DNA from: Nitrospiraceae bacterium
Lineage (GTDB): Bacteria; Nitrospirota; Thermodesulfovibrionia; Thermodesulfovibrionales; UBA6898
Length of the DNA stretch: 37,245 nucleotides
Reading direction: 5' to 3'
NCBI GenBank assembly: GCA_020347665.1
Contig: CP070737.1
Location: 1,961,254-1,998,498 of the forward strand
In this document: piece by piece, positions 3,304 to 25,170 of the stretch
Layout of the letters: every line of letters begins with the position of its first letter
How positions within the stretch are numbered: position 1 is the first letter of the stretch
Notes under the pieces: generated by a model
What the model was told of the DNA's origin: nothing
Seen by the model: only the letters and a program-made list of their open reading frames with translations
Databases searched by the model: none
Translations under genes and position numbers: made by a program

Positions 3304-4914
3304 TTATTCTTTCCAATAGGGATGCTTTAGATCTTCGAATATCGTCATTGCAGCGACCGCAGCTTGACCAACTGCTGTAACGATTTGTTTAACCCCGCCT
3401 GTGATATCTCCTGCTGCGTAAATACCTTTCATCGTAGTACGATAGTCTTTGTCTACGGTTATATATCCCTCTTCACTGTCAACGACGACTCCTAGCTGTA
3501 TTGCGAGTTTGTTGCTTGGCACGTACCCGATCGCAATGAACACGCCGTCGACAGGAACGGTCTTTGAAGAACTGTCTTTCATATTTTCTGCGACGATTCC
3601 GGTTACGAATTTTTCACCAACAATTTCCTTGACAACGGTATCCCATAGAATAGGAATCTTCTGCTGCATCAGATTCTTTTGGAGGAATTCTTCAGCCCGC
3701 AACTGATTTCTCCGGTGAACGAGAGTTACATCAACGCCGATATTTTTTAAATAGAGTGCCTCTGTCGCAGCCGTGTTTCCGCCTCCGACTACGACAACTT
3801 TTTTTCCATCTTTAAAGAAATAGCCGTCGCAGGCGGCACAATAGCTTACCCCTTTTCCCTGAAATTGCAGTTCACCGGGAATATCTAGTTTCTTACTCTG
3901 AGCACCGGTAGTAATCAAGACAGCTTTTGCCGTATAGGCAGCTTTATTTGTCTTCAGGTGAAAGAGGTGATCTTTTTTTTCTATACTCAGGACCTCTTCT
4001 CCTTCATGAATGTCAGTATACTGAATAGCCTGCTGAGCCATCATATCCATAAGTGTTTTCCCGGCGATTTTGGTGAATCCGGGATAATTTTCAACGACCG
4101 GGGTAATGGCAACCTGCCCGCCGATATTTGCTTTATCAAGCACAACAGTGTCAAGACCACTTCGTTCAGTATAAATTGCAGCAGTAAGACCGGCCGGTCC
4201 AGCACCAATGACAACCACATCTTTTTCAGTAAGATCTGATTGTTCAACCGGCTTAATCTTGACTGACGCGGCGGAAATAACTTCCTCAACAAAGACTTCT
4301 TCCGGCTGCAGGCCCTGACCGACGAGATTATCGTCAATAAACAGTTGAGGTACAGAAGTTGCGTTATATTTGGATGCAAGATCCTTGTTTTCATAAATCT
4401 CTATAATTTCCAGATGGATTAAATCCTTTTTCTCAATTGCGACTGCAACCGCAAGGGTAGATTGTAGAGGGCAATAAGGACACGTTGGACTCACAAAGAC
4501 TTTCACATTACGTTTATCGATAAGATCATCAAGCCTCTTTCGTGAATCATCGGTGAGAATCGACCGTCCTGTAGAGGCCATAAGGAGAGCAGCCATCAGG
4601 GCCTGGACTTCTTCACCGGCTGGTGCGCCGACAAAGCGAATATGATATTTTTCAGGCTGTATAATGAGTGTGGGAGATCTTGTAGCATTAAATTTTTTTG
4701 AAAGCTCACTGCCGATATTTTCGAACTGCGGTGCAATTTTTTCTGAAATCTGCGAAAGCTCAGAGAGTAACTTCCGGGAATATTCATTAAAGGTCTGATT
4801 TTCATCTTTTGATGTAAACACGAGTATCCTTACAGGATCTTTCATTTCAGCAAGGTCCCGCTGGAGAATTTTTTTGGTATCGTCGTCGATTAATACGGGG
4901 CCTGATTTGTTCAT
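3304..4914 (-). CDS. Thioredoxin reductase-like flavoprotein with N-terminal double thioredoxin-fold (glutaredoxin-like) domain
   Basis: The 536-residue protein has an AhpF-like order. Residues 1-125 form a thioredoxin fold that has lost its CxxC (FTSKDENQTF). Residues 130-215 form a second fold with an active CPYC near residue 146. Residues 228-536 form a low-molecular-weight thioredoxin reductase module. That module has the FAD Rossmann motif VVVIGAGPAGLTAA, the redox pair CAAC near residue 358, the NAD(P)H site VVVGGGNTA and the FAD-ribityl motif GIYAAGDITGG. It probably passes electrons from NAD(P)H through FAD and CAAC to CPYC and then to a peroxiredoxin or disulfide partner; no ahpC is in the window. 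Last gene of the minus-strand run, 51 bases after the YkgJ-like gene. Confidence 0.88.
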   Translation of the reverse strand: MNKSGPVLIDDDTKKILQRDLAEMKDPVRILVFTSKDENQTFNEYSRKLLSELSQISEKIAPQFENIGSELSKKFNATRSPTLIIQPEKYHIRFVGAPAGEEVQALMAALLMASTGRSILTDDSRKRLDDLIDKRNVKVFVSPTCPYCPLQSTLAVAVAIEKKDLIHLEIIEIYENKDLASKYNATSVPQLFIDDNLVGQGLQPEEVFVEEVISAASVKIKPVEQSDLTEKDVVVIGAGPAGLTAAIYTERSGLDTVVLDKANIGGQVAITPVVENYPGFTKIAGKTLMDMMAQQAIQYTDIHEGEEVLSIEKKDHLFHLKTNKAAYTAKAVLITTGAQSKKLDIPGELQFQGKGVSYCAACDGYFFKDGKKVVVVGGGNTAATEALYLKNIGVDVTLVHRRNQLRAEEFLQKNLMQQKIPILWDTVVKEIVGEKFVTGIVAENMKDSSSKTVPVDGVFIAIGYVPSNKLAIQLGVVVDSEEGYITVDKDYRTTMKGIYAAGDITGGVKQIVTAVGQAAVAAMTIFEDLKHPYWKE

Positions 4915-22404: not shown

Positions 22405-22474
22405 TATGTCCCTTCATAATGTCTTCATATAATTAGCTTAAGTTATACAAAAATTTAAAGAAAAGAGGTGAATA

Positions 22475-23260
22475 ATGTTTAGAGGCATAATAAAAATAGG
22501 GTTGATGGCCTTTATGGTGATATCCATCGTTATTCAACTGACTCCAGACTATGCCCGGGCAGAGAATACGTCTGTTCTTACCGCTGATGATGCCGACAGG
22601 GCCCTGAAATCTCTGGATCCGGATATCAGGATACTGTCTGTCAATCCCGCTCCGGTAGCGGGGCTTTGGGAGGTTGTTGTTGAATCCAAGGGGCAAAAAA
22701 GCATTGTATACCTTGACTCAGCACAGAAGAAGGTATTTATTGGTTCTATCGTGGATGTTGTCTCACGGACCAATCTGACAAAAAAACGGTTTGATGAAAT
22801 TAATAAAATTGATATTTCGCTGATACCGCTTGAAGATGCCCTTATTATGGGCGATCCAAAAGCAAAGCATAGGGTCATCGTATTTGATGATCCTGATTGA
22901 CCGTATTGTGAAAAACTTCATCAGGAGATGAAGAAAGTTCTGAGTCAGCGAAATGATATTGCTTTTTACTTAAAAATGATGCCGTTGGTTTCGCTGCATC
23001 CGGAGGCCTATGATAAGTCAAAGGCGATTGTTTGTGAAGAGTCGAATGAAAAGGCAATTAAAATGCTCGAAGATGTATATGCAAAGAAATCGATTCCACC
23101 TGCAACCTGCGAAACAAAAGTAGTCGAGGAGACTTTGCGTCTTGCTCAGACACTGGGAATCAGCGGCACGCCGACAATCGTCTTCAGTGATGGATCACGT
23201 GCCAGCGGTGCTGTTAAGGCTGAACAACTGATCCAGCTGATTGACCAGAAAGCGCAGTAA
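22475..23260 (+). CDS. DsbC-like periplasmic disulfide isomerase, predicted selenoprotein (UPYC active site)
   Basis: Read through the TGA at 22898-22900 the frame is open for 261 residues. A signal peptide (residues 1-29, cut after ARA) precedes a DsbC dimerisation-like domain (about 33-115), then a thioredoxin fold with VIVFDDPD, U142, PYCEKLHQE, the cis-Pro loop GISGTPTIVF (about 225-234) and a second Cys pair (about 192, 213) as in DsbC. The DsbC-family active site is CPYC; here the TGA replaces exactly the first, nucleophilic Cys. The frame is kept on both sides (a multiple of three), homology is continuous, and a hairpin follows in SECIS position. The start has AAAGAGGTG upstream. A nonsense mutation is possible but less likely. 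It should act in thiol-disulfide exchange outside the inner membrane, probably reduced by the neighbouring TlpA-type protein or a DsbD. Confidence 0.85.
22898..22933 (+). promoter_or_regulatory. UGA selenocysteine codon and candidate bacterial SECIS hairpin
   Basis: TGA (22898-22900) is followed by a perfect 7-bp stem, CTTCATC (22916-22922) with GATGAAG (22927-22933), and loop AGGA (22923-22926). The loop begins 23 bases after the TGA, inside the 16-37 base range known for bacterial SECIS elements, and contains Gs as in the fdhF loop. The hairpin is inside the coding frame, as required. Confidence 0.65.
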
Positions 23261-23294: not shown

Positions 23295-23825
23295 ATGAGA
23301 AAAATCGTTATATTATTTATTCTTATAATGGCTGTAGTAGTAATTATCTCTCTGCCGAAAAATGGCGACAGACAGAAAACAGTTGTTGCCGTAGGCCTCA
23401 AAGGGCCGGCATTCAGTCTGTCAGAACTGGATATCGGAGGGACGGGCGCTCAGAAGACATGGACATTTTCTGATTTGCAGGGGACCGTTGTGTTCATAAA
23501 CTACTGGGCTACCTGGTGTAAGGAATGCAGGGAGGAAATGCCGTCCATGCAGCGGCTCTATGACCGTATGCAGGGAAAGCCTTTTCAGATGCTGACAATA
23601 TTGTATAGAGATGATCCGAAACGAGCCGTTACATACATGAAGGAAAACGGTTATACGATGCCGGTGCTTCTGGATCCTGACACTGACCTCGCTTTTTCCT
23701 ATGGAGTTACTGGAGTGCCTGAGACATATGTGGCTGACAAGGAGGGTGTTATACGGGAAAAGATTATCGGTCCGAGGCACTGGGATGATCCCGGCAGTAC
23801 GGTAGTAATCGAAAGCTTGCTGTAA
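23295..23825 (+). CDS. TlpA/ResA-like membrane-anchored thioredoxin
   Basis: The 176-residue protein starts MRKIVILFILIMAVVVIISL, an uncleaved anchor or signal, followed by a TlpA-type thioredoxin fold with active site WATWCKECREEMPSM near residues 70-84 and cis-Pro in GVTGVPETYV near 142. Proteins of this kind reduce periplasmic disulfides, such as apocytochrome c haem sites (ResA/CcmG) or copper-site thiols. Both active-site cysteines are normal codons here. The ATG at 23295 fits the signal region; an in-frame TTG at 23241 would overlap the end of the DsbC-like gene. Forms a run with the DsbC-like, copC and copD genes. Confidence 0.85.
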   Translation: MRKIVILFILIMAVVVIISLPKNGDRQKTVVAVGLKGPAFSLSELDIGGTGAQKTWTFSDLQGTVVFINYWATWCKECREEMPSMQRLYDRMQGKPFQMLTILYRDDPKRAVTYMKENGYTMPVLLDPDTDLAFSYGVTGVPETYVADKEGVIREKIIGPRHWDDPGSTVVIESLL

Positions 23826-23865
23826 AACGATAATAATGATAATATGTGGAGGGAAAAGAGGTAAT

Positions 23866-24219
23866 ATGAGATACTATGTCGCATGGTGCTTTGTGCTATT
23901 GCTCATTCCGCTACCGGTTTTTGGACACGTGTATATCTTGGAATGTAATCCTGAGCAGGATGCCATTCTTGATGCCCCTCCTGAAAAAATCACGATCACC
24001 TTTGTCGGGACTGTTGAACCCGTTTTCTCGAAGATCGAGGTGTTTGACAGCGAGGGGAACAAGGTCTCCGGGAAGAAGACAGAGTTTTCAGAAGACGATA
24101 CCGTCATGGAAGTTACTTTGAAAGAAAACTTGAATCCCGGGAAGTACACGGTAAAATGGGCCTGTATGAGTTTAGACGGACATAAACAGACCGGGGAGTA
24201 TTCCTTTACCCTTAATTAG
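23866..24219 (+). CDS. CopC-domain copper-binding periplasmic protein
   Basis: The 117-residue protein has a signal peptide (MRYYVAWCFVLLLIPLPVFG) and a mature start at HVYILECNP. The N-terminal His at the cleavage site and the His in MSLDGHKQTGEYSFTL are the CopC Cu(II) ligands. The beta-sandwich pattern (DAPPEKITITFVGTVEP, SKIEVFDSEGNKV, GKYTVKWACMSLDGH) fits CopC/YcnJ N-terminal domains. The ATG at 23866 has AAAGAGGT upstream. Copper delivery to CopD and the copper-thiol chemistry of the upstream genes make a functional set likely (inference). Confidence 0.85.
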   Translation: MRYYVAWCFVLLLIPLPVFGHVYILECNPEQDAILDAPPEKITITFVGTVEPVFSKIEVFDSEGNKVSGKKTEFSEDDTVMEVTLKENLNPGKYTVKWACMSLDGHKQTGEYSFTLN

Positions 24220-25170
24220 ATGGATTTTTCCTATGTCTTGATGATTCTTTTCTACTGGTTTTTTCTTACCGGTGCTGTGTTTCTTACCGGAGCCTTTTCA
24301 AAAAGATTTTTTGTCACCGGCCCTTCAAACGCAGATATCTGCATGATCGAAGGCAGGAAACGCAGTTTTGGAGAATCAGCGGTTCGCTCAATATTTCTGA
24401 TTGCAGTCATTACCTTTTTTGCAAATATTGTTCACCTGATTTTTCATGCCTCGATTATGACCGAAACCCCCCTGAAAGAGGTTTTTTCAATACTCTCTCC
24501 TTTCCTTACAAAGACAAAGTACGGAAGATTTACTGTTTTACGAATGATATTCGTTGGAATAATCATTATTCTGTCTCTCATGAGTATAATGAGAGACACA
24601 AAAGGTTTAACCATTTTCGGTATTCTTGTATCCTGCTGTTTGCTTATTGTCATTGCCATGTCAGGCCATCAGGGAACCAAAGGATATTTCACCGTACCGT
24701 TTTATCTCGATGTGCTTCACCTTATGGCTGTTTCTTTATGGATTGGAGGGTTATTCTTTATTCGTTTCTGTTATACATTTTTTCTTGAGGGTGCCGGTGC
24801 TGAATTATGGGAACAGTTTTGTTATCTGATCAACCGTTATTCCCAAATTGCGACCTATTCTGTTTTTCTGGTAGGTGTAACAGGGCTTTTACTGGCGTAT
24901 TCCAATATTAATGATATTGCCGGTCTCATCGGGACACGTTACGGGCAGGTTCTTCTGTTGAAATTTCTCCTTGTAGGCATTCTGTTCCTTCTCGGAGGAA
25001 TTAATAAATTCTTTATCGTGCCGGCTTTTAATCAGCATGATGCAAATAGAAGGGCAGACTTGTTGCCTCAGAGAAAACGACTGTTTCGCCTGGTGACAGC
25101 TGAAGTCTATATCGGGAGTGTCGTTCTCCTGCTGACGAGCATTCTTACGCACCTTCATCCGGAAGGATAG
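24220..25170 (+). CDS. CopD family copper transport membrane protein
   Basis: The 316-residue protein has about eight membrane helices and starts at the ATG directly after the copC stop codon. CopD-domain features are SGHQGTKGYFTVPFYLDVLHL followed by MAVSLWIGGLFFI (residues 147-180) with the conserved His in LHLMAVSLW, and ATYSVFLVGVTGLLLAY (about 211-227). It probably imports copper handed over by CopC, perhaps for cuproenzyme or cytochrome oxidase assembly. It converges on a YtkA-like lipoprotein gene 25 bases away. Confidence 0.85.
   Translation: MDFSYVLMILFYWFFLTGAVFLTGAFSKRFFVTGPSNADICMIEGRKRSFGESAVRSIFLIAVITFFANIVHLIFHASIMTETPLKEVFSILSPFLTKTKYGRFTVLRMIFVGIIIILSLMSIMRDTKGLTIFGILVSCCLLIVIAMSGHQGTKGYFTVPFYLDVLHLMAVSLWIGGLFFIRFCYTFFLEGAGAELWEQFCYLINRYSQIATYSVFLVGVTGLLLAYSNINDIAGLIGTRYGQVLLLKFLLVGILFLLGGINKFFIVPAFNQHDANRRADLLPQRKRLFRLVTAEVYIGSVVLLLTSILTHLHPEG

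Follow-up and report, generated by a model that had tools for sequence, protein, structure and literature searches.

A DsbC-type disulfide isomerase gene with a predicted selenocysteine codon in a Nitrospiraceae bacterium and its homologues

Described relatives and layout of the gene

COG1651 includes both DsbC and DsbG. Proteins of this DsbC/DsbG type that contain selenocysteine (Sec) are a kind already known since 2005. According to the accessible portion of the Sargasso Sea report, one DsbG-like Sec protein with a UxxC motif was found there and assigned to COG1651 (PMC1088965), and the GOS report of 2008 held five, as its table row reads in the text available (PMC2398784). In the portion at hand of an inventory from 2026, which counts 119 families and subfamilies, the DsbG-like selenoproteins correspond to NF041057 (PMC13188914). 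As far as these portions go, what such proteins share with the one described here is Sec at position 1 of UxxC in a DsbC/DsbG-type isomerase (PMC1088965, PMC2398784, PMC13188914). The inventory also has DsbA-like and thiol-disulfide isomerase-like selenoproteins, similar in carrying UxxC in a thioredoxin fold; their domains are PF01323 and cd02966, and they are set apart here by the table description only (PMC13188914).

The gene studied here lies in a window of 37,245 nucleotides, the whole stretch of DNA that was analysed, which covers C1:1961254-1998498 of a genome assembled as a single contig of 2.25 Mb, with a listed completeness of 91%. Its predicted product belongs with DsbC in that the DsbC_N and thioredoxin domains are both present. 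It resembles E. coli DsbC (1eej) in this pair of domains, in a CxxC-type motif and in a TP loop, and differs from it in having a predicted Sec in place of the first Cys and in scoring 94.3 bits with the NCBIfam DsbC model, below the equivalog cut-off of 215. The DsbG model came second with 55.1 bits. The window protein thus differs from the DsbG-like selenoproteins in being nearer to the DsbC model, and it was not listed under NF041057: that model was not among the 14 listed for it at E values up to 1 or 10, in searches where few matches above about 0.1 survive the HMMER filters. Of the 48 families matched by the 27 other rows of our 28-row alignment, 25 were listed. The numbers differ as well, with one (Sargasso Sea) and five (GOS) sequences in the accessible text of the earlier reports, as compared to 90 distinct TGA copies from one lineage here. 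Sec-containing DsbC in Nitrospirota was not treated in the literature searched, PMC9402790 included, as judged by titles or passages. What is new, as far as that search reaches, is the extent within one order, the near-invariant SECIS element and the many Sec/Cys switches.

The features of the gene are as follows.

22475..23260, + strand: predicted Sec-containing DsbC-type disulfide isomerase gene (Pfam DsbC_N, E 5.6e-12; Thioredoxin_2, E 2.4e-22; best sequence match among solved structures, E. coli DsbC 1eej, E 3.1e-21)
22464..22471, + strand: likely ribosome-binding site, AGAGGTGA (by eye)
22475..22561, + strand: likely signal peptide, residues 1-29, ending ARA|EN (by eye)
22580..22780, + strand: DsbC_N domain, residues 36-102 (Pfam)
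22859..23239, + strand: thioredoxin-fold catalytic domain, residues 129-255 (Pfam; Foldseek match to disulfide interchange protein 3gv1, rmsd 2.4)
22898..22900, + strand: TGA read as selenocysteine, residue 142, position 1 of UPYC (reading frame and codons of homologues)
22907..22909, + strand: predicted resolving Cys145 of UPYC (translation and alignment)
22916..22933, + strand: SECIS-type hairpin with a 7-bp stem and an AGGA loop at 22923-22926 (conservation in homologues and shuffle count)
23168..23173, + strand: Thr-cisPro loop, T232 and P233 (invariant across the 28-row alignment)

The cis geometry of the TP loop is a property of the thioredoxin fold, and DsbC_N is the dimerisation domain in DsbC. 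An AlphaFold model built with four sequences was of moderate confidence (pLDDT 77.7, pTM 0.67) and had a low-confidence N-terminal helix at residues 2-22. Its best Foldseek match was E. coli DsbC (E 9.4e-14), although the two structures as a whole superpose poorly (rmsd 8.8).

An earlier note on this DNA, made from the letters alone, had described a single in-frame TGA in an otherwise open 261-codon frame, placed at the first Cys of a CPYC motif with the second Cys and the GISGTPTI loop intact, and a perfect 7-bp hairpin whose loop begins 23 bases past the TGA. The sequence bore out each of these points. From ATG to TAA, the TGA at 22898-22900 is the lone interruption, and when it is read as a residue the frame gives 261 amino acids and a stop; GISGTPTI lies 3' of the TGA in the same frame, and the hairpin, CTTCATC-AGGA-GATGAAG, is found at 22916-22933. 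The note was also right that ORF calling would split the gene, since the standard ORF list cuts it into 22475-22900 and 22928-23260. From the comparisons reported below, we consider it highly likely that this DsbC-type gene encodes a functional selenoprotein in which TGA is decoded as Sec.

Selenium machinery and tRNA set

We searched the source genome for the genes of Sec synthesis and insertion, and the outcome was mixed with respect to the earlier note, which had named selA, selB, selC and selD: selA, selB and selD were found, and selC was not, with tRNA-Glu and other tRNAs missing too. The selA match scored 605.8 bits and the selB match 373.5 bits, with cut-offs that were passed in 1 and 2 of 14 control genomes, respectively; the two genes adjoin at 2.235-2.239 Mb. 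Two selD genes were above the cut-off (passed in 2 of the 14 controls), each with one in-frame TGA. In both selD loci (C1:1050450-1051373 and C1:1382656-1383582) the TGA is near the N-terminus, and the first has, by eye, a 7-bp hairpin with a GTTC loop at nearly the same spacing after the TGA as in DsbC. SelD is a known selenoprotein family in the accessible part of the 2026 inventory (PMC13188914).

No tRNASec was detected in the source genome by Rfam above its cut-off, and two pattern searches gave no credible match. With a covariance model built from 21 relatives, the best match was a tRNA-Ser. One pattern hit (C1:1606620-1606663) was rejected as tRNASec: it has its 3' end in common with tRNA-Leu(CAG), and ARAGORN does not call it a tRNA. 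It looks like a stray tRNA-Leu-like 3' end, possibly an integration remnant. In a groundwater Nitrospirae lineage, selC was described as adjoining or overlapping selB, in the part of that report available (PMC8124441). In the source genome, the 14-kb selA-selB region held no Rfam match for selC at E up to 1. The neighbours of selC gave no guide to its place, as they differed between genera among seven loci in relatives.

Across the source genome and 60 relatives, tRNASec was above the Rfam cut-off in 53 of 61 genomes, and in 51 of these it scored at least 65 bits (hand count, stricter filters); this is a cut-off that is not fully specific, since it was passed in 5 of the 14 control genomes. 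Among the matches listed, 39 of the 61 genomes had a TGA-bearing DsbC, and in 35 of these 39 tRNASec was above the cut-off (hand count). The source genome (G000) is one of the four in which it was not, together with G004, G007 and G016; the match in G058, one of the 39, was marginal at 47.7 bits.

These results bear on the reading that the assembly is complete and selC has been lost, such that in this genome the TGA is a stop or depends for its decoding on a tRNASec that is non-canonical or highly divergent. The single contig and the failure of Rfam, the patterns and the lineage covariance model to find tRNASec speak for it. However, a general tRNA search gave 32 matches, of which ARAGORN assigned 31 as genes, and tRNA-Glu, Ile(GAT), Lys(TTT) and Arg(ACG) were not among these 31. 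We know of no bacterium that lives without tRNA-Glu. Because this tRNA is indispensable and still was not found, tRNA genes must be absent from the assembly or have been missed by the search, and the absence of selC therefore says little. The listed completeness of 91% and the presence of selA, selB and two selD genes of selenoprotein type also argue against this reading, and we regard it as very unlikely. Probably, selC is in the real genome and the assembly lacks it.

Codon, hairpin and selection in homologues

A protein search of 199 genomes (the source genome and relatives) gave matches in 162. The codon was read at 133 loci and four duplicates were dropped, leaving 129 distinct sequences, chiefly from the same bacterial order. 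(Three pairs of copies, L025 and L077, L026 and L089, and L024 and L069, are the same over their last 180 residues.) The earlier note had proposed looking for Cys at this column in homologues. Cys was indeed found in 39 of the 129 (TGT 23, TGC 16), and TGA in the other 90; no other codon occurred. The 90:39 ratio is not a prevalence, since the set was largely chosen by the stop column: 20 and 40 loci were taken as TGA-type and 20 as Cys-type, in a further set of 19 relatives' loci most were picked because their row showed a stop, and the 199-genome search had some TGA-type rows that were left out. The hairpin played no part in the choice.

When the 28-row alignment was searched against the phylum, 162 of 395 genomes gave matches, and among the 150 matches listed, 84 had one TGA, 66 had no stop and none had TAA or TAG (hand count). 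We rejected TAA and TAG as additional recoded codons. Some rows of the protein search showed such stops; five that had TAA or TAG alone were read (L082, L106, L107, L109 and L111), and all have Cys at the column; with this result, and with none among the 150 matches, we take these stops to be the genes' own ends. One TGA-bearing DsbC (L099, G031:C1:2087400-2088700) has Ser (TCA) for the second Cys, giving UPFS, with the hairpin intact.

In the window, counting both strands, a TGA followed at the exact spacing by a perfect 7-bp stem and 4-base loop occurs at one site only, as compared to a mean of 0.12 in 200 dinucleotide-preserving shuffles. With the spacing relaxed to 8-24 bases there were 5 sites against 2.2 expected, and 2 of the 5 are the DsbC hairpin itself, reached from two TGAs. 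The hairpin by itself is thus weak evidence, and the case for it rests on conservation in relatives.

There, all 90 TGA copies had a 4-base loop on a perfect 7-bp stem at bases 16-33 after the codon, versus 3 of the 39 Cys copies. In the first 89 homologues the counts were 50/50 and 3/39 (Fisher p 9e-22, uncorrected for relatedness). The rule used by bSECISearch for bacterial SECIS loops is a G among the first loop bases, and the second loop base was G in 90/90 TGA copies. An identical stem was found in 87 of the 90; the other three carry a compensatory T-A to C-G change (CTTCACC/GGTGAAG), and their protein has Val for Met. Synonymous codon use within the stem is uniform in TGA copies and variable in Cys copies. 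The Leu codon was CTT in all of the first 50 TGA copies versus 12 of 36 Cys copies with Leu, and the Lys codon was AAG in 50/50 versus 21/39.

We next considered relatedness, using an unrooted tree of 89 rows made by a quick method with the Sec site and the hairpin codons excluded, in which 29 of 86 inner branches were starred as well supported. At least nine Sec/Cys changes are forced by the starred branches, and the best tree has 19; gain and loss of Sec are indistinguishable, as the root was not inferred. Among nine phylogenetically independent pairs, an average of 7.5 had the hairpin going with Sec and none had it going against Sec; p had a median of 0.008 and ran from 0.008 to 0.031. On the tree, the rows nearest to the three Cys copies with the hairpin (L076, L084 and L141) are TGA copies, and these three look like recent Sec-to-Cys changes that have retained the old hairpin. 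L141 forms a close Sec/Cys pair with L126 (90% identical over 221 columns). In the accessible portion of a 2006 study of bacteria, Cys-to-Sec events outnumbered Sec-to-Cys events, and SECIS-like remnants were reported in some Cys forms (PMC1794560).

Selection was estimated as dN/dS separately 5' and 3' of the site in 12 pairs, of which 11 are close and one joins the window gene to L066. This last pair yielded no ratio because synonymous sites are saturated. Finite dS was obtained in 11 of the 12 pairs, which include one Sec/Cys pair, three with dS above 1.5 and non-independent pairs among L118, L121, L126 and L141; in these 11 the ratio 3' of the site was 0.023-0.167, and a dead 3' half should give a value near 1. 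Judged by these ratios, purifying selection acts on the part 3' of the TGA as it does on the part 5' of it.

The selenoprotein reading of the earlier note is therefore supported by the alternation of TGA and Cys (90/39), by the hairpin in 90/90 versus 3/39 copies, by purifying selection on the 3' half and by selA, selB and selD, in a gene homologous to DsbC. The decayed gene in relatives for which that note had allowed is contradicted by the comparative data. It is extremely improbable that the gene is a pseudogene or a sequencing error, with the TGA a nonsense mutation or a misread TGT or TGC, from either of which it is one base away, and with a decaying 3' half: the failure to find selC in this assembly would fit, but an identical TGA stands in 90 distinct homologues, none with TAA or TAG, the hairpin accompanies every one, dN/dS is low 3' of the TGA, and a second copy in the source genome is arranged alike. 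We give as little credence to general suppression, or to insertion of another residue such as Trp or Cys, in either case with no selenium; the frame is open whatever sense meaning the TGA has, but the TGA/Cys exchange falls on the redox Cys, a hairpin of fixed spacing goes with the TGA, and the genome has selA, selB and selD.

Proposed role, paralogue and neighbouring genes

If the TGA is decoded as Sec, SelB carrying Sec-tRNASec would bind the hairpin 16-33 bases past the UGA and Sec would be placed at residue 142. The protein would then be exported and act as a DsbC-type isomerase, probably dimerising through its N-terminal domain. The selenolate of UPYC may attack non-native disulfides, with Cys145 as the resolving residue, and a CcdA/DsbD-type membrane protein may keep the isomerase reduced. 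The source genome has two DsbD_TM proteins (open frames of 251 and 260 amino acids), which are candidate reductants of DsbC.

The second DsbC gene of the source genome (C1:1622637-1623446, minus strand; L094:3638-4447) has the same TGA and hairpin, and the product of C1:1622637-1623302 within it is 52% identical to the window protein over the matched stretch. By eye, the N-terminus of this paralogue, MSSRRFFSIAVMLLVLMGC, has the look of a lipoprotein signal with a lipobox, and on this ground the cell may have both a soluble and a membrane-anchored Sec-DsbC. It is possible, though somewhat short of probable, that the order has a selenium-based periplasmic disulfide-isomerisation system, in which a soluble and a lipid-anchored Sec-DsbC occur together in one cell, Sec and Cys having been exchanged at the catalytic position at least nine times. 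If so, the order would be a natural replicate experiment on keeping versus dropping selenium. As Sec and Cys have been exchanged repeatedly and the hairpin retained or lost to match, close pairs such as L126 and L141 are available for testing the benefit of selenium to a disulfide isomerase. Annotation pipelines may split the Sec-DsbC gene as the standard ORF list does, and since the same arrangement occurs in dozens of genomes, a selenoenzyme that is probably exported may go unnoticed throughout the order.

There was no sign of a conserved gene neighbourhood within the loci checked, most of which had at most 1.5 kb of flank. In the window, the DsbC gene is followed on the + strand (23295-25170) by a gene for a TlpA/ResA-like thioredoxin and, after it, those for CopC and CopD. 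Neither recR, ebfC, copC nor copD was found beside DsbC in the other loci checked, again mostly with flanks of 1.5 kb or less, and among the relatives' loci checked L024 and its duplicate L069 were the sole ones with a TlpA-like gene next to DsbC. Downstream of the second DsbC gene is a tRNA-Leu(CAG), preceded, by eye, by an apparent truncated copy of its 5' part. Elsewhere in the window (3304-4914, minus strand) is a gene for a flavoprotein with a thioredoxin domain followed by a pyridine-nucleotide-disulphide oxidoreductase domain, which we take to be AhpF-like.
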